Positions 19,621 through 28,401 of a stretch of 64,000 bases of DNA are shown here, piece by piece. The first letter of the stretch is position 1. Every line of letters starts with the position of its first letter. The stretch is taken from positions 62,001-126,000 of the forward strand of contig NZ_ATWJ01000008.1 in assembly GCF_000421185.1 (NCBI RefSeq). The letters run 5' to 3'. A program made the translations under genes and the position numbers. The DNA comes from Ornithinimicrobium pekingense DSM 21552. Its GTDB lineage: Bacteria > Actinomycetota > Actinomycetes > Actinomycetales > Dermatophilaceae. Below the pieces are notes generated by a model. It did no database searches, had not been told where the DNA came from, and was given only the letters and a program-made list of their open reading frames with translations.

Positions 19621-20534
19621 CGCAGGACCGTGTCCGCCGGCTCGGGAGCCGCCGAGGGGGCCGCCCGCCGCGCCCGCAGCAGCCGGCGCGAGACCACGCC
19701 TGCGACGAGCAGGAGCGAGACCGCCAGCACCGCGAGGCGCAGGGCGACGCCGGCCAGCTCCCCCGCGCCCGCGACCGCCAGCACGGGGCCCAGGTTGAGG
19801 TTGACGATCATCACCCCGACGGCCACGCCGAGCACCTCCGGGGGCATCCGGCCGGCCAGCAGCGCGGCGGCCGGGGCCGCCAGCACGCCCCCGGCCATGA
19901 GCGCCAGGATGGTCCCCGCGTGCAGACCGGACAGTCCCAGACCGACGAGGAACCCGACGCTGGCGCACACCGTCACCACGAGCTCGGAGGCGGACACCGA
20001 GCCGATGACCCGGCGCGGGCTGGCCGGACCGGTGGTCAGCAGCGTGGACGTGACCACCGGCCCCCATCCCCCGCCCCCGGTGGCGTTGACGATGCCGCCG
20101 ACCAGTCCCAGGGGTCCGAGGAACCGCCGCCGCCGGGCCCAGGCCGTGGCGCCCGCCACCGCCGCCGGGGGCCGGGTGAGGAAGCGCACGACGACCGCGA
20201 CCCCGAGCAGCAGCAGCAGGACCGCCATGACCGGGCGGGCGACGGTCGCGGGCAGGGAGGTGAGCAGGGTCGCCCCGAGCAGACCACCGAGGCCGCCCGG
20301 CAGCGCCAGGCGCCGCACGATCGTCCAGTCGACGTTGCCGGCCCGCCAGTGGCTGGCGCCCGAGGCCAGCGTGGTGCCCAGCTGCGCCAGGTTGACCGAG
20401 GCGCTCACCAGAGCCGGAGTGAGCCCCGTGGCCAGCAGCAGGGAGGCGGAGGTGACGCCGTACCCCATCCCGAGGGACCCGTCGACGAGCTGCGCGCCGA
20501 AGCCGGCGAGGGCGATGAGGAGCAGAGTGGTCAC
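19617..20534 (-). CDS. TauE/SafE-family anion exporter
   Basis: A 305-residue membrane protein with two repeats of about four hydrophobic segments, the TauE/SafE (DUF81) layout. Family marks are GFGAQLVDGSLGMGYGVTSA near the N-terminus and LVGGIVNATGGGGWGPVVTS at the start of the second half. Members move sulfite, sulfoacetate or similar anions. Placed inside the sulfate-reduction operon with GTGA overlaps on both sides, it may export excess sulfite or take up a sulfur anion (inference). No ABC sulfate transporter is present in the window. Confidence 0.87.
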   Translation of the reverse strand: MTTLLLIALAGFGAQLVDGSLGMGYGVTSASLLLATGLTPALVSASVNLAQLGTTLASGASHWRAGNVDWTIVRRLALPGGLGGLLGATLLTSLPATVARPVMAVLLLLLGVAVVVRFLTRPPAAVAGATAWARRRRFLGPLGLVGGIVNATGGGGWGPVVTSTLLTTGPASPRRVIGSVSASELVVTVCASVGFLVGLGLSGLHAGTILALMAGGVLAAPAAALLAGRMPPEVLGVAVGVMIVNLNLGPVLAVAGAGELAGVALRLAVLAVSLLLVAGVVSRRLLRARRAAPSAAPEPADTVLR

Positions 20535-21757
20535 GCGACCGCCTCGGCACGGACGGCCGCGGGCCAGGCGTGCGCCAGGCGCACGACGTCCCCGACGACG
20601 ACCACGGCGGGGGACGCCACGCCCACCCGCTCGGCCAGGTCGGCGATGTCGGCGAGGGTCCCGAGCGTCACGCGCTGCTCCGGGGTCCAGCCGCGCTCGA
20701 CGATCCCCACCGGGCACCCGGCCGGCCGGCCGCGGGCCACCAGGCGGGCGGCGGTCTCGCGCAGGGTGGCGACGCCCATCAGCAGCACGAGCGTGTGGTC
20801 CGCACCTGGCGGCACCGCCGCGATCTGCTCGTGACCGGTCACCACCGTGAAGCCGCGGGCGACGCCCCGGTGCGTGACGGGGATCCCTGCGGCGGCCGGC
20901 ACCGACACCGCGCTGGTCACCCCGGGGACGACCTCGACGGGCACGCCTGCCCGCTCGCAGGCCAGCCGCTCCTCCCCGCCGCGGCCCAGCACATAGGGGT
21001 CTCCGCCCTTGAGCCGCACGACCCCGCGCCCGGCCGAGCCGTGCTCGACCAGGATCCGGTTGATCTCGTCCTGGGGGACCAGATGGTGTCCCGGCGTCTT
21101 GCCCACGTCCACGACGGTCACGGTCCCGGGCAGCGCCTCCAGGACCCCTTGAGGGACCAGCCGGTCGGTCACGACGACGTCGGCCGAGGCCAGCAGCTGG
21201 GCGGCGCGCCGGGTCAGCAGGCCGTCGTCACCCGGGCCGGCGCCGACGAGCGCGACCCACCCCCGCCGCGGACGACGTGCCCGCAGGTCCACGGCACCGG
21301 AGCGGAGGTGGTCGGTGACCGCGTCCCGGACCGCCACGGCCCGGCGGGGGTCGCCGCCGGCGTGCACCGCGACCCGCACCGTGCCGTCGGGCAGGGCCAC
21401 CTCGCCCCGGGCCGGGACCTGCGCCGTCCCCAGGGAAGCCTCGCCCGCCGTCACGCAGAAGACGCGCCGTTCCTCGGCGTCGGTCGCGACACGGGCGTCC
21501 ACGGCCGGGTCGCCGGTGGCGGTGTGCACCAGCCAGGCCCCCCGGAGGTCGGCCGGGCCCGCATAGCGGCGGGGGACCCACAGCAGGGCGCCACGGCCGG
21601 CCAGGTCGGCGAGCAGGCTGCACAGCGAGGGCGAGACCACGGTCACCTCCGCGCCGTCGGCAAGCAGGTCCTGCACCCGGCGCGCCGACACCGGCCCTCC
21701 GCCGACGGCCACGACCCGGCGGCCCTCGAGCGAGAGCCCGAGCAGGGTGGTGGCCAC
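20531..21757 (-). CDS. siroheme synthase: precorrin-2 dehydrogenase fused to uroporphyrinogen-III methyltransferase
   Basis: A 408-residue CysG-like fusion. The N-terminal 150 residues form a Met8-type NAD-binding domain (VVAVGGGPVSARRVQDL). The C-terminal part is a SAM-dependent SUMT with VGAGPGDDGLLT, VRLKGGDPYVLGRGGEE and GIPVTHRG. It should turn uroporphyrinogen III into sirohydrochlorin. In the N-terminal domain, the Asp-rich site following the sheet reads HTATGDPAVD, with one of the usual acidic pair replaced by Gly. This could weaken the dehydrogenase/chelatase step and would explain the separate CbiX gene. Start GTG 21757; the end overlaps tauE. Confidence 0.88.
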   Translation of the reverse strand: MATTLLGLSLEGRRVVAVGGGPVSARRVQDLLADGAEVTVVSPSLCSLLADLAGRGALLWVPRRYAGPADLRGAWLVHTATGDPAVDARVATDAEERRVFCVTAGEASLGTAQVPARGEVALPDGTVRVAVHAGGDPRRAVAVRDAVTDHLRSGAVDLRARRPRRGWVALVGAGPGDDGLLTRRAAQLLASADVVVTDRLVPQGVLEALPGTVTVVDVGKTPGHHLVPQDEINRILVEHGSAGRGVVRLKGGDPYVLGRGGEERLACERAGVPVEVVPGVTSAVSVPAAAGIPVTHRGVARGFTVVTGHEQIAAVPPGADHTLVLLMGVATLRETAARLVARGRPAGCPVGIVERGWTPEQRVTLGTLADIADLAERVGVASPAVVVVGDVVRLAHAWPAAVRAEAVA

Positions 21758-21758
21758 G

Positions 21759-23126
21759 TCAGGTCCTCAGCCCGGCGCCGACGAGGCCGGCAGCCAGCGT
21801 GGTGCCGTCGTGCGGGTCGACGACCAGCAGGCTGCCCAGCTCGCGCGACACGGCGTAGTCCTCCAGCGGCAACGGCTCGGCGAGCGCCAGGCCGACGCGC
21901 ACGAGGTCGTTGAGCCCGGCGCCCTCGCCCCCGACGTCCTCCACGTGCATGGCCGCGACGTCGAGCCGCTCGTGCAGGGTCGTCACCCGCGCGCGCACCG
22001 TGCGCGTGCCGTGCTTGACCAGCACGCGGGCACCGGGGAACAGGGGCTGCTCGGTGAGCCAGCACAGCACCGCGTCGGCCTGCCGCACGGGCACCGGCAC
22101 CGCCTCCGCACCGACGACCAGGTCGCCGCGCGAGATGTCCAGCTGGTCGGCCAGCCGGAGGGTCACCGACAGCGGGGCCACGGCCCGCTCGACGCTGACA
22201 CCGCCGCGGTCGATGCCCACCACGGTCGTGCGCCGGCCCGAGGGCGACACCACGACGTCGTCGCCGACGCGGACCACCCCCGACGCGACGTGCCCGGCAT
22301 ACCCGCGGTAGTCCACGAACGCCGGGTCGACCGCGCCGTGCTGGGGGCGCAGCACCAGCTGGACCGGCATCCGGAACGGCTGGCCCGTCTCCTCCCCCGT
22401 GGGCAGGGCCTCGAGGAGCTGCAGCAGCGTGGGCCCGGGATACCACGGCGTCCGGGTGGAGGGTTCCACGACGTTGTCGCCGTGCAGCGCCGAGACCGGC
22501 ACCACCGAGACGTCCACCAGGCCGAGGGCCTCGGCCAGGGAGGCCACGTCGGCGGAGACGGCGGCGTGGACGGCCTGCGCGTCGGGCACGAGGTCGATCT
22601 TGTTGAGCGCGACGACGACGTGCGGGGCGCGGAGCAGCCCGACGACGGCCAGGTGCCGGCGGGTCTGCTCGACGACACCGTGCCGGGCGTCGACGAGGAC
22701 GACGACGACGTCGGCGGTGCTGGCGCCGGTGACGGTGTTGCGCGTGTACTGCACGTGGCCGGGGCAGTCGGCGAGGATGAACGAGCGGGTCGCGGTGGCG
22801 AAGTAGCGGTAGGCCACGTCGATCGTGATGCCCTGCTCGCGCTCGGCGCGCAGGCCGTCGGTGAGCAGGGCCAGGTCGGCGAGCTCACCCACCCAGCCGC
22901 GCCGCCGCGACGCCTGCTCGACGGCCGCCATCTGGTCGGCGAGCACCGACCTGGTGTCGTGCAGGAGACGGCCGACGAGCGTGGACTTGCCGTCGTCCAC
23001 CGACCCGGCGGTCGCCAGCCGCAGCAGGGTGGGCGCCGTGGTGGGCACGGTGTCGGTGTCGTTGTCGTTGTCGGTGTCGTTGTCGTTGTCGGTGTCGTTG
23101 TCGTTGTCGTTGACCAGGGTGCTCAT
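21759..23126 (-). CDS. cysN: sulfate adenylyltransferase subunit 1 (CysN)
   Basis: A 455-residue GTPase subunit that drives APS formation with CysD. It has GSVDDGKST (P-loop), DCPGH and NKID, followed by EF-Tu-like domains 2 and 3. No APS kinase domain is fused. The N-terminus is odd: residues 6-25 are a low-complexity Asn-Asp-Thr tract encoded by three exact 18-bp repeats. The ATG at 23126 shares one base with the cysD stop (TGATG). Without this tract the protein would begin at the usual position just before TLLRLATAGSVD. Confidence 0.94.
   Translation of the reverse strand: MSTLVNDNDNDTDNDNDTDNDNDTDTVPTTAPTLLRLATAGSVDDGKSTLVGRLLHDTRSVLADQMAAVEQASRRRGWVGELADLALLTDGLRAEREQGITIDVAYRYFATATRSFILADCPGHVQYTRNTVTGASTADVVVVLVDARHGVVEQTRRHLAVVGLLRAPHVVVALNKIDLVPDAQAVHAAVSADVASLAEALGLVDVSVVPVSALHGDNVVEPSTRTPWYPGPTLLQLLEALPTGEETGQPFRMPVQLVLRPQHGAVDPAFVDYRGYAGHVASGVVRVGDDVVVSPSGRRTTVVGIDRGGVSVERAVAPLSVTLRLADQLDISRGDLVVGAEAVPVPVRQADAVLCWLTEQPLFPGARVLVKHGTRTVRARVTTLHERLDVAAMHVEDVGGEGAGLNDLVRVGLALAEPLPLEDYAVSRELGSLLVVDPHDGTTLAAGLVGAGLRT
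23051..23111 (-). repeat. 18-bp tandem repeat in cysN 5' end
   Basis: Three perfect copies of TGTCGGTGTCGTTGTCGT (23051-23104) plus a partial copy. It is in frame and encodes the NDNDTD tract of CysN. Confidence 0.9.
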
Positions 23127-24070
23127 CAGAAGTACCCCTCCTTCTTGCGGTCCTCCATGGCGGCCTCGGAGAGGCGGTCGTCGGCGCGGGTGGCGCCGCG
23201 CTCGGTGACGGTCGTCGTGGCGACCTCGGTGATCACGGCCTGCACGTCGCGGGCCTGCGAGGGGACGGCCCCCGTGCACGACATGTCGCCGACCGTGCGG
23301 TAGCGCACGGTGCGGGTGCCGACGGGCTCGCCCGCCCGCGGAGCCGTCCACGGCGACGGGGTGAGCAGCATGCCGTCACGCTCGAAGACCTCGCGCTCGT
23401 GGGCGTAGTAGAGCGGCGGCAGCTCGATGCCCTCCCGGGCGACGTAGCGCCACACGTCCAGCTCGGTCCAGTTGGACAGCGGGAAGACGCGCACGTGCTC
23501 GCCGGGTCGGTGGCGGGTGTTGTAGAGGCGCCACAGCTCGGGCCGCTGGTTCTTGGGGTCCCACTGCCCGAAGGAGTCGCGCAGGCTCACCACCCGTTCC
23601 TTGGCCCGGGCCTTGTCCTCGTCGCGGCGGCCGCCGCCGAAGACCCCGTCGAAGCGGCGCTCCTCGATGGCGTCGAGCAGGGGCAGCGTCTGCAGCGGGT
23701 TGCGGGTGCCGTCGGCGCGCTCGCGCAGCCGCCCGTCGTCGAGGTAGTCCTGGACGCGGGCGACCACGAGGTCGACGCCGAACCGCTCGACGGTGGCGTC
23801 GCGGAAGGCCAGCACCTCGGGGAAGTTGTGCCCGGTGTCGACGTGCACGACGGGGAAGGGCAGCCGGGTCGGCCACAGCGCCTTGGCGGCGAGGTGCAGC
23901 ATCACCACGGAGTCCTTGCCGCCGGAGAACAGCAGCGCGGGCCGCTCCAGCTCGGCGACCACCTCACGGATGATGTGGATCGCCTCGCTCTCGAGGGCGT
24001 CGAGCAGGTCCGGCGCGGAGCCGGCGTGCGGGTCCAGCTCGCGCGCGAGCTCGACGCGGTATGTCGTCAC
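23126..24070 (-). CDS. cysD: sulfate adenylyltransferase subunit 2 (CysD)
   Basis: A 314-residue PP-loop ATP sulfurylase subunit, which joins sulfate to AMP from ATP. The PP-loop is FSGGKDSVVMLHLA; other family blocks are VDTGHNFPEVLAFRD, GGGRRDEDKARAKER, FPLSNWTELDVW and VGDMSCTG. Length is as expected. GTG 24070 follows GAGGAG by 5 bases, and overlaps the cysH stop by 4 bases. It works as a complex with CysN, encoded next. Confidence 0.95.
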   Translation of the reverse strand: MTTYRVELARELDPHAGSAPDLLDALESEAIHIIREVVAELERPALLFSGGKDSVVMLHLAAKALWPTRLPFPVVHVDTGHNFPEVLAFRDATVERFGVDLVVARVQDYLDDGRLRERADGTRNPLQTLPLLDAIEERRFDGVFGGGRRDEDKARAKERVVSLRDSFGQWDPKNQRPELWRLYNTRHRPGEHVRVFPLSNWTELDVWRYVAREGIELPPLYYAHEREVFERDGMLLTPSPWTAPRAGEPVGTRTVRYRTVGDMSCTGAVPSQARDVQAVITEVATTTVTERGATRADDRLSEAAMEDRKKEGYF

Positions 24071-24843
24071 GAGGTCTCCTCGGTCGTGGTGGCAGCGGCC
24101 GTGCCCGGGTGCAGTCCGCACTCGGTCTTGGCGAACCCGGCCCAGCGGCCCGCCCGCGGGTCATCGCCGTCCACCACCGGGCGGGTGCAGGGGGCGCAGC
24201 CGATGGAGGGGTAGCCCTGTGCCAGGAGCGGGTTCGCCGGGAGCAGGTGGCGCTCGGCGTGGGCCCGCACCTGCTCGGAGGTCCACGCCGCCAGCGGGTT
24301 GACCTTCACCAGGCCGAAGGCCTCGTCCCACGTCACCAGCGGGGTGTCGGCCCGCGTCGGGCCCTCCTCGCGGCGGACGCCGGTGACCCAGGCGTCGTAG
24401 CCGGCGAGGGCACGTCGCAGCGGCTCCACCTTGCGCAGGCGGCAGCAGGCGCCGGGGTCGCGGGCGAAGAGGTCCTTGCCCAGCCTGGCGTCCTGCGCGG
24501 CCACCGTCAGCTCCGGCCGCACGTCGACGACCGTGACGTCGAGCAGGTCGGCGACCCGGTCTCGTGTGGCCACCGTCTCCGGGAAGTGGTAGCCGGTGTC
24601 GAGGAAGAGGACGTCCACCCCGGGCAGGTGCTCGGCCACGACGTGCGGCAGGACCGTGTCCTGCATGCTGCACGCCACGGCGACCCGGCCGCGGAAGTGC
24701 GCGGCGGCCCAGGCGAGGACGCCGTCCGTGTCCTCGGCACCTCCGTCGGCGAACCGCTCCTGCGCCTCCTGGGCGAGGGCGCGCAGCCGCTCCGTCCGCG
24801 CGTCGACCCGTCGCGGCTGTGCCGGGTGGGTGGTGGCGGTCAT
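24067..24843 (-). CDS. cysH: APS reductase (CysH, iron-sulfur type)
   Basis: A 258-residue adenylylsulfate reductase that gives sulfite. The paired cysteines of the [4Fe-4S] form are present: CC in GACCRLRKVEPL and CxxC in GCAPCTRPV, with the catalytic Cys in the C-terminal TECGLH. The nucleotide-binding region is VACSMQDTVLPHVV. The absence of an APS kinase gene in the operon agrees with use of APS rather than PAPS. ATG 24843 overlaps the sirA stop (ATGA) and its own end overlaps cysD. Confidence 0.94.
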   Translation of the reverse strand: MTATTHPAQPRRVDARTERLRALAQEAQERFADGGAEDTDGVLAWAAAHFRGRVAVACSMQDTVLPHVVAEHLPGVDVLFLDTGYHFPETVATRDRVADLLDVTVVDVRPELTVAAQDARLGKDLFARDPGACCRLRKVEPLRRALAGYDAWVTGVRREEGPTRADTPLVTWDEAFGLVKVNPLAAWTSEQVRAHAERHLLPANPLLAQGYPSIGCAPCTRPVVDGDDPRAGRWAGFAKTECGLHPGTAAATTTEETS

Positions 24844-26549
24844 GTCAGGTCCTCCTCCTCGGCACGGTGCGCCCAGGACGCGAACGCCTCCCCCGGCCGG
24901 CGGGTGGCGGCGTAGCGGCGGACCACGCGCTCGACATACCCCGGCAGGTCCTGGGCCGGGACCTTCAGGCCGCGCACGGTCCGGCCCAGGCCGGGCTCGC
25001 CGTCCCGGTCGACCGAGGCCAGGCCGCCCCCCAGGTGCACCTGGAAGCCCGGGACCTGCTGCCCGTCGACGGTGACGATCTGGCCCTTGAGCCCGATGTC
25101 GGCGGTCTGGATGCGGGCGCAGGAGTTGGGGCAGCCGTTGACGTTGAGGGTGATCGGGTGCTCGAGCAGCGGCTCGACGTCCGCGAGGCGCCGTTCGAGC
25201 TCGGAGACCGCGTGGGCGGCGGTGTCCTTGGTGTCGACGATCGCCAGCTTGCAGAACTCGATGCCGGTGCAGGCCATGGTGCTGCGGCGGAACAGGCTCG
25301 GGCGGGCGGTGAGGCCGAGCGGCTCGAGCGCCTCGACCAGCTCCTCGACCCGCTCGGCGGGCACGCCGAGGACGACCAGCTTCTGGAAGGCGGTGAGCCG
25401 CACGGACCGGGCACCGACCCGCTCGACCAGGTCAGCCAGCCCGCGCAGCGTGCTCCCGCCCACGCGGCCGACCGTCGGTGCGGCGCCGACGTAGAAGCGC
25501 CCGTCCTTCTGGCGGTGCACCCCGACGTGGTCACCCGGCGCCGTCGGCGCCGCGGGCGCGGGGCCGTCCGGGAGCCGGTAGCCGAGGTACTCGGTCTCCA
25601 GGACCTCGCGGAAGCGCTCGGTGCCCCACTCGGCCAGCAGGAACTTCAGGCGTGCCTTCGTGCGCAGCCGCCGGTAGCCGTAGTCGCGGAAGATGCGGAT
25701 GACGCCGTGCCACACCTCCGCCGCCCGCTCCTCGGACACGAAGACCCCCAGCCGCTCGGCCAGCCTCGGCGCGGTGGACAGCGCGCCGCCCACCCACAGG
25801 TCGTAGCCAGGCCCCAGCTCGGGATGGACCACCCCCACCAGCGACACGTCGTTGATCTCGTGGACGACGTCCAGGCTGGGGTGCCCGGTGATCGCGGACT
25901 TGAACTTGCGCGGCAGGTTGGCCAGATCGGGGTCACCGACGAAGCGCCGCTTGATCTCGGCGATGACGGGCGTGGGGTCGATGATCTCGTCGGCCGCGAC
26001 GCCGGCGACCGGGCTGCCGAGGAACCCGCGGGGGGTGTCGCCGCAGGCGGTGGTCGTCTCCAGCCCGACCGCCTCCAGCCGGCGCCAGATCTCCGGGACG
26101 TCCTCGATCCGTACCCAGTGGTACTGGATGTTCTGCCGGTCGCTGATGTCGGCCGTCCCCCGGGCGAGGTCGGTGGAGATGTCGCCGAGCACGCGCAGCA
26201 TCGTCGGAGTCAGCTCGGCCCCGTCCGAGCGCACGCGCAGCATGAAGTAGCGGTCCTCGAGCTCGTGCGGCTCGAGCTGGGCGGTGCGGCCGCCGTCGAT
26301 GCCGGGCCGGCGCTGGGTGTAGAGGCCCCACCAGCGGAAGCGTCCGTGCAGGTCCTCCGTCGGGATCGAGTCGAAGCCCTCGAGGGCGTAGACCTTCTCG
26401 ATCCGCTCGCGCACGTTCAGGCCGTTGTCCTCGGCCTTGACGCGCTCGTTGTCGTTCAGGGGGGTGGTGCCGTCGACCGCCCACTGGCCCTGCGGGCCGG
26501 TGGATCGGGACGGGCGGACGCGCGAGCGCGCCGGGGCATGGGTGGTCAT
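24840..26549 (-). CDS. sirA: ferredoxin-dependent sulfite reductase
   Basis: A 569-residue siroheme and [4Fe-4S] reductase that makes sulfide from sulfite. Cofactor cysteines appear as ACTGIEFCKLA and NGCPNSCAR. Duplicated nitrite/sulfite reductase half-domains are visible, with DISDRQNIQYHWVR in the first. Nitrite reductases share this fold, but the cys neighbours favour sulfite. Start ATG 26549 has GGAGAG 4 bases upstream. It is the first enzyme gene of a seven-gene overlapped operon and lies 78 bases after a short leader peptide gene that probably controls it. Confidence 0.93.
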   Translation of the reverse strand: MTTHAPARSRVRPSRSTGPQGQWAVDGTTPLNDNERVKAEDNGLNVRERIEKVYALEGFDSIPTEDLHGRFRWWGLYTQRRPGIDGGRTAQLEPHELEDRYFMLRVRSDGAELTPTMLRVLGDISTDLARGTADISDRQNIQYHWVRIEDVPEIWRRLEAVGLETTTACGDTPRGFLGSPVAGVAADEIIDPTPVIAEIKRRFVGDPDLANLPRKFKSAITGHPSLDVVHEINDVSLVGVVHPELGPGYDLWVGGALSTAPRLAERLGVFVSEERAAEVWHGVIRIFRDYGYRRLRTKARLKFLLAEWGTERFREVLETEYLGYRLPDGPAPAAPTAPGDHVGVHRQKDGRFYVGAAPTVGRVGGSTLRGLADLVERVGARSVRLTAFQKLVVLGVPAERVEELVEALEPLGLTARPSLFRRSTMACTGIEFCKLAIVDTKDTAAHAVSELERRLADVEPLLEHPITLNVNGCPNSCARIQTADIGLKGQIVTVDGQQVPGFQVHLGGGLASVDRDGEPGLGRTVRGLKVPAQDLPGYVERVVRRYAATRRPGEAFASWAHRAEEEDLT

Positions 26550-26576
26550 GGGTCTCTCCGGTCGGGTGGGGGCGGG

Positions 26577-26605
26577 GGCGCCGCTGCCGGACGGGTGCCG
26601 GCGCC
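26577..26605 (-). promoter_or_regulatory. hairpin between leader peptide and sirA, possible attenuator
   Basis: GGCGCCG and CGGCGCC form a 7-bp stem around a 15-base loop, just after the leader stop and 28 bases before the sirA start. It could be a terminator or a ribosome-site masking stem whose folding depends on ribosome position. No T tract is present. Confidence 0.4.
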
Positions 26606-26627
26606 GGGGCGCGGGACGGGGCGGAGG

Positions 26628-26717
26628 TCAGCGACACGGGCGCATCAGCATGCTGCTGACGCGCTGGAGGTCGAGCTCGTGACACCTCGTCAGGAGGAGC
26701 CCATCCGGAAAAGCCAT
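26628..26717 (-). CDS. 29-residue leader peptide of the sulfur operon
   Basis: The peptide contains LLLTRCHELDLQRVSS and ends MRPCR. It resembles the short leader peptides of pattern LTxRxHxDLxRVxS found ahead of sulfur genes in many actinobacteria. Both Cys codons (positions 12 and 28) are TGT, a rare choice in this GC-rich DNA; TTT and AGG also occur. A promoter with TTGTTA, a 17-base spacer and CATGAT ends 6 bases before ATG 26717, so the message is probably leaderless and the peptide is its first product. Ribosome stalling at Cys codons would report cysteine supply to sirA downstream (inference from known mycobacterial cases). Confidence 0.72.
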   Translation of the reverse strand: MAFPDGLLLTRCHELDLQRVSSMLMRPCR

Positions 26718-26723
26718 GCGGGC

Positions 26724-26752
26724 ATCATGCACGCTTATCCGTTCGATAACAA
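26724..26752 (-). promoter_or_regulatory. promoter of the sulfur operon
   Basis: On the minus strand TTGTTA (26752-26747), 17-base spacer, CATGAT (26729-26724). The predicted start point coincides with the leader peptide ATG. Confidence 0.55.
26735..26749. promoter_or_regulatory. inverted repeat over the sulfur operon promoter
   Basis: TTATC-N5-GATAA is a perfect AT-rich dyad lying in the spacer and touching the -35. Its position suits a repressor operator. The regulator is unknown. Confidence 0.45.
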
Positions 26753-26831
26753 GTCGAGTCAGGTCGTGCTGGAGCGGCGGAGGCGCGCGACGCCCGCGCG
26801 ACGGAGCCAGCGCGAGCAGGCCGGGTTCCGG

Positions 26832-26837
26832 TAGCGT
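26832..26837 (+). promoter_or_regulatory. possible -10 of the Mau-like operon
   Basis: TAGCGT fits TAnnnT. Transcription would begin near 26844, so that the message opens with the hairpin at 26843-26867. No clear -35. Confidence 0.35.
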
Positions 26838-26842
26838 CTGCG

Positions 26843-26867
26843 CCAGTGCGGTGCAGGGCCGCACTGG
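26843..26867 (+). promoter_or_regulatory. perfect dyad ahead of the cell-wall-binding gene
   Basis: CCAGTGCGG and CCGCACTGG (9 bp each) flank a 7-base loop, 14 bases before ATG 26881. It may be an operator or a stabilising 5' stem in the mRNA. Confidence 0.55.
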
Positions 26868-26880
26868 TCGATGGGGATCG

Positions 26881-28401
26881 ATGATGGGCAGGATCGGACG
26901 TACCGCACGGCCGGGGGCCGCAGCTCTCGCCGCGGTCGCTGCTGCCGCGGCATGGGGCGCGGGACCGGCGAGCACCTCCACGCCCGCGACCGGGCTGGCC
27001 CCGCAGGCGACCGCCCAGGCCGTCCGGTGGACCGAGGCCCTGGCCGGGCCGGCCCCGTGCCCCGAGGGAAGCACCCGCAGCGCGACCCTGCTCGAGGAGG
27101 ACTTCACCGCAGCCATCCCGCAGGCGAGCTTCAACGACGGCTGGGGCGTGGTGACCGGCGCCGTCGACGGGCGCGCCGCCCGGTCGACGGTGGGGTCCAC
27201 CGACGCCGAGGACTGGTTCTTCACCTCCTGGGCCTCGGCCCCCGTGGGAGCCCGCACCATGCTGGGCTTCGCCACCCGCGGCTCGGTGCCCGACCCGGCG
27301 TGGTCCCGGGCCGACGTCAACTCCGTCTCGGCGACGGTCACCACCGGCGCGACCTGGCAGGGCCGGGTCTACGACGTCACGGCCGCGACCGACGACGAGC
27401 AGGGCCGCCTCGGACCGTGGTTCCAGCACCGGTCGGCCGCGGGGGCGAGCCAGTGGTGGGAGGTCGACAACGTCCAGATCTACACCTGCCGCCCGGCGCC
27501 CGTCAGCCGGCTGCGCGGCACCGACCGCTACGACACCTCCGCGGCCGTGGCCTCCCAGTACCCCGCCGGCCAGGACGTCGTCTACCTCGCCCAGGGCCTG
27601 GACTTCGCCGACGCCCTCGCCGGGGCCGCCCTCGCCGGCAGGGACGGAGCACCGGTGCTGCTCGTCCGCAAGGACACGATCCCCAGCCGGGTGGCCGCCC
27701 AGCTCGACCGGCTCGACCCCTCACGTGTCGTGGTCCTCGGCGGGCCCGAGGTGGTCAGCGACGCGGTCGTCGCCGCCGCTGCCGCCCGGACGACCACCGG
27801 GGAGGTGACCCGGCTCGCCGGGACGAGCCGGTGGGGGACGGCCGCGGCGATCGCGTCCACCTATCCCTCCGGGGTCGGCACGGTCTATGTCGCCAGTGGC
27901 CTGGACTACCCGGACGGGCTCTCCGGAGGGGCGGCCGCCGGCCGCCTCGGCAGCCCGCTCCTGCTCACCCGCCCGGACGTGCTGCCGCTGGAGACGCAGG
28001 CGGCGCTGGACCGGCTGGCGCCCGGCGCTGTCGTCATCGTCGGTGGCCCCGGGGCGGTGTCCTCGGCGGTGATGACCCAGCTGCGCGACCACACCTCCGG
28101 CACGGTGAGCCGCATCGCCGGCGTCGACCGCTACGAGACCGCCGCCCGGGTCGCGGCGACCTTCCCGGCGGGCCCGCGGCGCACCTTCGTCGCGACGGGC
28201 ACCGCCTTCCCCGACGCCCTGTCCGCCTCGGCCCTGGCCGGGGCGGAGGCGACCCCGGTGCTGCTGACCAAGCCGCAGGCCCTGCCGGCCACCGCCCGGA
28301 CCGCCCTCGACCGCCTCGGCGCCGGGGCCGGCGTGGTGCTGGGCGGCTACAACGCGGTCCAGTCCACCGTCCTCGACCAGCTCGGCCAGCGGGTCGGCTG
28401 A
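26881..28401 (+). CDS. secreted protein with three cell-wall-binding repeats (CWB2)
   Basis: A 506-residue exported protein. A signal peptide covers about residues 1-30 (basic start, Ala-rich core). Residues 65-203 form a beta-rich domain of unknown role with two Cys at its borders (Cys60, Cys203) and motifs such as FNDGWGVVTGAVDG and WWEVDNVQIYTC. Residues 208-506 hold three CWB2 repeats, each beginning V(S/T)RL.G..R(Y/W).TAA and containing a VVxxGGP-type strand. CWB2 repeats anchor proteins to cell-wall polymers. It lies 10 bases before the next gene and heads an operon with Mau-like maturation genes, so it may anchor or present the system on the wall (inference). Confidence 0.83.
   Translation: MMGRIGRTARPGAAALAAVAAAAAWGAGPASTSTPATGLAPQATAQAVRWTEALAGPAPCPEGSTRSATLLEEDFTAAIPQASFNDGWGVVTGAVDGRAARSTVGSTDAEDWFFTSWASAPVGARTMLGFATRGSVPDPAWSRADVNSVSATVTTGATWQGRVYDVTAATDDEQGRLGPWFQHRSAAGASQWWEVDNVQIYTCRPAPVSRLRGTDRYDTSAAVASQYPAGQDVVYLAQGLDFADALAGAALAGRDGAPVLLVRKDTIPSRVAAQLDRLDPSRVVVLGGPEVVSDAVVAAAAARTTTGEVTRLAGTSRWGTAAAIASTYPSGVGTVYVASGLDYPDGLSGGAAAGRLGSPLLLTRPDVLPLETQAALDRLAPGAVVIVGGPGAVSSAVMTQLRDHTSGTVSRIAGVDRYETAARVAATFPAGPRRTFVATGTAFPDALSASALAGAEATPVLLTKPQALPATARTALDRLGAGAGVVLGGYNAVQSTVLDQLGQRVG

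Follow-up and report, generated by a model that had tools for sequence, protein, structure and literature searches.

The window analysed here, a stretch of 64,000 nucleotides (G000:C8:62001-126000, where G000 is the window's own genome), carries on its minus strand an operon of genes for sulfate assimilation. Its first structural gene, sirA, encodes a sulfite reductase of the sirA/nirA type (24840-26549) and is followed by cysH, the gene for an APS/PAPS reductase (24067-24843), and by cysD, cysN and a siroheme gene of the cysG type (20531-24121), the latter three being named by eye and their starts approximate. At the head of this sirA-cysH-cysD-cysN-cysG operon, and separated from sirA by a gap of 78 nt, lies a minus-strand open reading frame of 29 codons plus TGA that runs from 26717 to 26628, as an initial annotation based on the letters of the sequence had described it. 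The encoded peptide, MAFPDGLLLTRCHELDLQRVSSMLMRPCR, contains cysteine only at codons 12 (26682-26684) and 28 (26634-26636), and both of these codons are indeed TGT. A divergent gene on the plus strand (approximately 26871-28401), which by eye resembles cell-wall-binding repeat proteins, starts some 150-170 nt from the leader start, and the intergenic region is common to both.

We then asked how far the leader is retained in relatives. In a scan upstream of sirA relatives that comprised 142 regions (62 of the 63 long matches and 80 further genomes, with 450-500 nt each and two regions of only 24 nt), the leader was recovered at E < 1e-6 in 14 regions, two of which repeat another row; none was found in the 450-500 nt upstream of sirA in the remaining 128, the two regions of 24 nt among them. 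Within the genus, an ortholog of sirA at E<=1e-150 is present in 4 of 31 genomes and the leader accompanies it in all four, and seven further genomes of the genus that are devoid of such an ortholog carry the leader directly before cysH, the latter being 66-71% identical to cysH of the window. Both groups support the earlier proposal of a cysteine-linked, probably leaderless leader ahead of sulfate-reduction genes. With ten leaders as queries, matches at E<=0.001 were obtained in 56 of 186 family genomes. For all further comparisons we refer to a clade of 14 members, consisting of the window, the seven cysH-type relatives and the sirA-type members G016, G002, G050, G465, G466 and G510; leader and promoter are found throughout these 14 genomes from three genera, and the first gene is sirA in seven cases and cysH in the other seven. 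Long open frames do exist on both strands in this region, as expected at 74% G+C, and could suggest that the leader is just a chance ORF in GC-rich DNA, but the reading frame is kept in the 14 genomes together with start spacing and core motif, and we consider this explanation hardly credible.

The assignment of the peptide to an LTxRxHxDLxRVxS type of leader fits in part, as the core is recognizable but a cysteine replaces the arginine that is found seven residues before the DLxR arginine in 82 of 85 leaders. The curated model for such putative leader peptides, NF042934 (cis_reg_atten, with a cut-off of 27 bits), gave no match to the window peptide at E<=1, and the leader is not among the nine matches at E<=10 that the model finds in the window genome. 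Leaders from five of seven relatives do match NF042934, three of them above 27 bits and the best, from G022 of the same genus, with 31.2 bits, while those of G002 and G016 yielded no match at E<=10. The model for mycobacterial Ms4527A matches four of seven relatives' leaders, in all cases below its cut-off. A further model was made of 81 leaders from outside the clade, some of which had initially come from searches whose models were seeded with the window leader, and in a search with this model the segment containing the ORF ranked best of 1030 window segments, with an E value of 5e-4 compared to 0.51 for the next; the same model also recovered polycysteine leaders of the mycobacterial type. 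The matches of the relatives and the model of 81 other leaders together form the basis of the family link, and judged by its sequence the window leader is a diverged relative of the actinobacterial cysteine leaders (NF042934, mycobacterial Ms4527A), with homology to NF042934 members through intermediates. It shares with the latter the core motif, again via intermediates, and the presence of sulfur genes downstream, and differs in that the window peptide itself goes undetected by the model. A Pfam match to the leader of one relative was below the cut-off of that family and was taken as chance.

Downstream of 50 leaders, where one ORF per leader was chosen by coding score and one ORF may match several families, Pfam matches were obtained to NIR_SIR_ferr (12), SDF symporter (8), rhodanese (7), sulfatase (3), PAPS reductase (2), PALP (2), TauD (1) and other sulfur-linked families. 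SDF proteins can carry cystine. Scores above the NF042934 cut-off were reached by family leaders in 228 of the 394 genomes sampled from the class, as opposed to 41 of 396 from the window's own order.

The promoter suggested for the leader, TTGTTA-17-CATGAT, was verified in the sequence of the minus strand, with the -35 hexamer at 26747-26752 and the -10 hexamer at 26724-26729, ending 6 nt before the ATG. A generic promoter scan reported 0 promoter-like sites at the leader, because the scan requires agreement with sigma-70 at 9 of 12 positions and the two hexamers reach 8; the predicted promoter is backed by positional conservation, as all 14 members of the clade have an upstream -10-like hexamer whose distance to the ATG is 6-7 nt. 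In Streptomyces lividans, the accessible text of PMC8079986 gives a mean distance of 6.3 nt from the -10 hexamer to the transcript start, and the spacing observed here thus predicts a start at or beside the A of the ATG, placing the 5' end of the transcript at or within one base of 26717. Its retention in 14 of 14 members favours a leaderless start, and the clade leader is probably leaderless. Extending this to the whole family was rejected: among 84 family leaders, 33 have a -10-like hexamer only, 33 a Shine-Dalgarno sequence only, 11 have both and 7 neither, and due to these mixed signals we confine the leaderless start to the clade. Counted per start codon, the -10-like hexamer was found for 53 of 203 codons in frame and 24 of 146 out of frame, and the Shine-Dalgarno sequence for 50 of 203 and 18 of 146, respectively.

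The spacer of the promoter contains a dyad, TTATC-N5-GATAA (26735-26749), that is a candidate repressor operator. In its exact form it occurs at a single site in the 3.85-Mb genome, with approximately 0.04 expected from base composition, and at up to one mismatch it was found 0 times in 100 shuffles of the window. Perfect 5-base arms are seen in three of the 14 clade members (G000, G050, G466), and the GATAA half is kept in 12, with AATAA in G016 and CATAA in G026. The left arm drifts, and the 6-base arms agree at only 3 to 6 positions, with a mean of 4.4 out of 6. Over the promoter spacer the palindrome is GTTATC-N5-GATAAC, and the last base in the window is a G; exact palindromes in G050 (G050:C11:468698-468714) and G466 (G466:C35:4033-4049), both located at the leader, are the only rows with 0 mismatches among the matches listed for these two genomes, while a degenerate pattern of the dyad yields many 1-mismatch matches among those listed. 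The initial annotation had proposed a repressor at this site as one of two layers of control, and from the sequence such a second layer may plausibly exist: the dyad is real and its right half is well kept, but the left half drifts. It is conceivable that control is exerted mainly by such a repressor and that the leader is minor or vestigial, as might be argued from the uniqueness of the dyad in the window genome and from the exact palindromes at the same place in G050 and G466. In most of the 14 members, however, the left arm drifts while the ORF persists, with TGT as the last cysteine codon in 11, and with no regulator found for the dyad we regard this account as quite improbable.

For an analysis of codon usage, leaders were aligned on the arginine of the DLxR motif (R), and a set of 145, mostly the best-scoring matches of the underlying searches, was reduced to 85 with less than 80% identity over the last 60 nt. 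Six residues after this arginine, at R+6, a cysteine is found in 76 of the 85 leaders, and its codon is TGT in 72 cases and TGC in 4. The other cysteine codons of the same leaders comprise 19 TGT and 58 TGC (Fisher 1.8e-20 versus R+6), the most mixed position being R+7 with 7 TGT and 8 TGC. Stricter filters retained TGT at R+6 in 49/52, 20/21, 11/12 and 5/6 leaders, and the frequency of T as a third base is 0.87 at R+6 but 0.01-0.16 at the other aligned codons. In sirA genes, 9 TGT and 405 TGC were counted, but these come from 80 genomes close to the order of the window, whereas the leaders are drawn from across the class, and the other cysteine codons of the same leaders are the fairer control. 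A crude background from flanking ORFs contains 13-28% TGT, and the five operon genes of the window hold 0 TGT and 18 TGC, with cysN contributing 0 and 2. Note that the search models read amino acids only and thus cannot create a codon bias, although they do favour the peptide motif. The distance from the R+6 cysteine to the stop varies from 1 to 24 codons and the codon following it is variable, so that this preference seems anchored to neither the stop codon nor an extended DNA motif. By eye, TGT is also seen at R+6 in the polycysteine leaders L218, L220 and L226, which are of the mycobacterial type and mix TGT with TGC at the neighbouring positions. A single tRNA-Cys with anticodon GCA is encoded among the 45 tRNAs of G000, which rules out a separate tRNA for UGU and implies that UGU and UGC are read by the same one.

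Within the clade, the cysteine at codon -2 is TGT in 11 and TGC in 2 of the 13 genomes with a cysteine there, G026 having arginine, while at codon -18 it is TGC in seven of eight cases and TGT in one. The emphasis placed earlier on two rare TGT codons thus holds for the last one, a candidate sensor codon that is conserved in the clade and corresponds to the R+6 preference across the family, but not for the first, for which relatives have TGC or arginine. The family-wide UGU rule, in genomes that as a rule favour UGC, is not one that a specialist would have expected, and it is new relative to the literature searched, in which subscription journals were covered only in part; the nearest published hint, in the accessible text of PMC9094748, is a lower G/C skew associated with the cysteine codons of mycobacterial leaders. 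An attenuator that simply counts codons would not be expected to fix one UGU at a constant spacing from a conserved peptide when the other cysteine codons of these leaders are mostly UGC, and the pattern points to a defined position of stalling.

The ORF itself contains a structure that the initial annotation does not list, a hairpin of 11 bp with a 3-nt loop (26640-26664, minus strand), located one codon upstream of the last cysteine codon. It is more stable than 500 of 500 shuffles (z -4.33), and in an alignment of 12 clade members with 10 distinct sequences 97.3% of the cells pair, with one compensatory change in G050; this alignment omitted G465 and G466, both of which by eye seem not to keep the hairpin. 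Since covariation of this degree also arises in 54 of 500 shuffles, the structure is backed by stability and retention rather than by covariation, and its signal may in part be due to the codons. A hairpin previously placed between leader and sirA did not rise above chance (z 0.27; 59% of 500 shuffles equalled or exceeded its stability). With 0 terminator-like sites in 26400-26900, the region does not resemble a classical transcription attenuator, and no Rfam family was found at the leader.

Two long-range pairings on the minus strand were considered as well. Leader codons 2-5, UUUUCCGG (26705-26712), can pair with the Shine-Dalgarno region of sirA, CCGGAGAG (26554-26561), with a duplex null of 0.054, and the last codons, GUGUCGCUG (26629-26637), can pair with CAGCGGCGC at 26578-26586, with a duplex null of 0.082. 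In the window, the mean probability of the sirA Shine-Dalgarno sequence being unpaired is 0.11, compared to 0.34 in shuffles of which 0/100 were as low, and it becomes 0.52 with the leader covered. A single ribosome stalled at the last cysteine is calculated to leave this sequence closed in G000 (0.11 to 0.10) and to decrease its accessibility in G511. As a general principle, masking of the Shine-Dalgarno sequence fails in 10 of 12 loci, with accessibility falling below 0.05 of shuffles only in G000 and G026 (0.04). For the seven cysH-type relatives, RNAalifold predicts that leader codons 2-6 are joined to the Shine-Dalgarno region and the last codons to a sequence upstream of it; a two-sided change is seen in 5 of 62 pairs, yet with +2.85 the covariation term speaks against the fold, and we therefore treat this two-helix fold as a hypothesis.

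These pairings raise the question of whether UGU is kept for the sake of an RNA stem, in which a CAGCGACA-like sequence preceding the Shine-Dalgarno sequence of the next gene would be the partner of UGU-CGC-UGA in a fold-switching translational attenuator. The pairing extends over 8 bp in five and 7 bp in two of the seven cysH-type relatives, the window holds a 9-bp version with two G-U pairs, and in G026 a U-A pair is replaced by a C-G pair. Set against this are the lack of any last-codon pairing of at least 6 bp in G016, the duplex null of the window and the unfavourable covariation term despite the two-sided changes. Across the family, the pairing of a leader with its own UTR is no better than with those of other loci (mean rank 0.50, KS p 0.71, n=56), and base pairing was rejected as the family-wide cause of TGT. 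We consider the stem an unlikely reason for the retention of UGU. In G026 (L199), the last cysteine codon is now CGT for arginine and its putative downstream partner is CAGCGACG instead of CAGCGACA, whereby the pair is kept.

The precedent cited initially, Cys-rich uORFs at sulfur genes in mycobacteria, is borne out by the accessible text of Shell et al. 2015 (PMC4633059), where conserved Cys-rich leaderless uORFs precede nirA, of the sulfite-reductase type, and cysA2, and where the cysA2-type leader of M. smegmatis is ribosome-occupied. According to the available parts of PMC9031893, citing Canestrari 2020, such Cys-codon uORFs control the downstream genes in response to cysteine via the speed of the ribosome, and this control is termed translation attenuation in that of PMC13236596. 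Experiments on this leader family were exclusively mycobacterial in the literature searched. Like Ms4527A (before nirA) and Ms5788A (before cysA2), the window leader precedes sulfur assimilation genes, with the same sulfite-reductase type of gene downstream, and it has a predicted leaderless start, a related VDLxRV core and cysteine codons near the stop. Unlike them it has no consecutive cysteine codons but two separated ones, a diverged core (CHELDL), a tail longer by three residues and the in-ORF hairpin. In the accessible text of Seliverstov et al. 2005 (PMC1262725), cys leader ORFs are also located ahead of cys operons in actinobacteria, where conserved terminators are absent and Rho was suggested; they differ in stemming from other species and in their runs of cysteine codons near the stop. 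The uORFC-8-2 motif before cysS in Rhodobacterales, as far as described in the accessible text of PMC8632094, likewise consists of a short uORF that contains cysteine codons and is accompanied by RNA stems, but its cysteine codons are in tandem and predominantly UGC, one stem is a terminator with a U run, and the genes downstream are others.

The ORF, its conservation ahead of a first gene that changes between sirA and cysH, the spacing of promoter and ATG, the last UGU and the in-ORF hairpin can all be read from the sequence directly, and we assign a probability of roughly 80% to the ORF working in cis as a cysteine-responsive leader, located where a leaderless mRNA for sulfate assimilation would begin. 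In the scheme that we infer, from transcript start and translation through to stalling and the direction of control, a 70S ribosome would start at the 5' AUG and, when Cys-tRNA is short, dwell while codon 28, the last cysteine codon (UGU), occupies its A site, so that the operon would be expressed. With cysteine plentiful it would finish the leader and leave, the leader RNA would refold, and expression of sirA-cysH-cysDN would fall. We extend this by analogy to mycobacteria, where the speed of the ribosome through the cysteine codons is reported to set downstream expression. A possible output step is the masking of the sirA Shine-Dalgarno sequence by leader codons 2-5, for which the calculations predict opening only when ribosomes cover the whole leader, and a Rho-dependent loss of the transcript would be equally possible; a repressor at the promoter dyad may add a second layer. 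Against a cysteine-responsive leader stand the absence of an NF042934 match to the window peptide, of an intrinsic terminator and of any leader upstream of most sirA relatives scanned, the failure of Shine-Dalgarno masking as a general feature, the presence of only two cysteine codons in the window peptide and the fact that G026 keeps the leader although its last cysteine has become arginine.

How the ribosome would be halted may lie in the peptide itself. As a nascent-peptide sensor, RRxVDLxRVxSx in the upper exit tunnel and the G:U wobble in the reading of UGU by tRNA-Cys(GCA) would together stop the ribosome at this codon, such that sensing would be done by the peptide and not by a run of cysteine codons. 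Such a sensor would fit with the cysteine-responsive leader and supply its mechanism. It is consistent with the preference for TGT at R+6 over both the other cysteine codons of the leaders and the third bases of other aligned codons, and with the single tRNA-Cys. The synonymous codons of conserved residues vary, those of the R-7 arginine being CGC in 36, CGG in 22, CGT in 12, CGA in 11 and AGG in 1, so that it is the peptide that seems selected, and the variable distance of the R+6 cysteine to the stop leaves the peptide as the fixed reference. On the other hand, the leaders were found with protein models and peptide conservation is thus partly built in, TGT in 7 of 15 cysteines at R+7 indicates some spill-over, and the cysteine of the window clade is at R+7 or R+9, so that the spacing is not absolute. 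We put this mechanism forward tentatively, as a serious candidate that falls short of even odds, and with marginally more reserve the generalization that the whole leader superfamily might be a nascent-peptide cysteine sensor, in which the tunnel sequence RRxVDLxRVxSx and a near-obligatory, wobble-read UGU set one stall point. If this were true, the use of UGU over UGC would sensitise the stop to the charging of tRNA-Cys or to a sulfur-dependent modification, the latter being our own suggestion, and the window clade would be a variant in which the stop is shifted by up to three residues and the in-ORF hairpin has been added.

A leader-like sequence is also found in a different context in the window genome. 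A second CysN (L069, approximately 1500-1551; G000:C13:22588-22638) begins with MTRRHVDLLRVATAGSVDDGKST, and this N-terminus is the best match of the genome to NF042934, with 26.3 bits and thus below the cut-off. In the family's 29 other best-matching CysN loci the protein starts with a DLLRF- or DMLR-type sequence and is devoid of RRHV there, and the N-terminus of the second CysN may represent either a fused leader-like start or a case of convergence.
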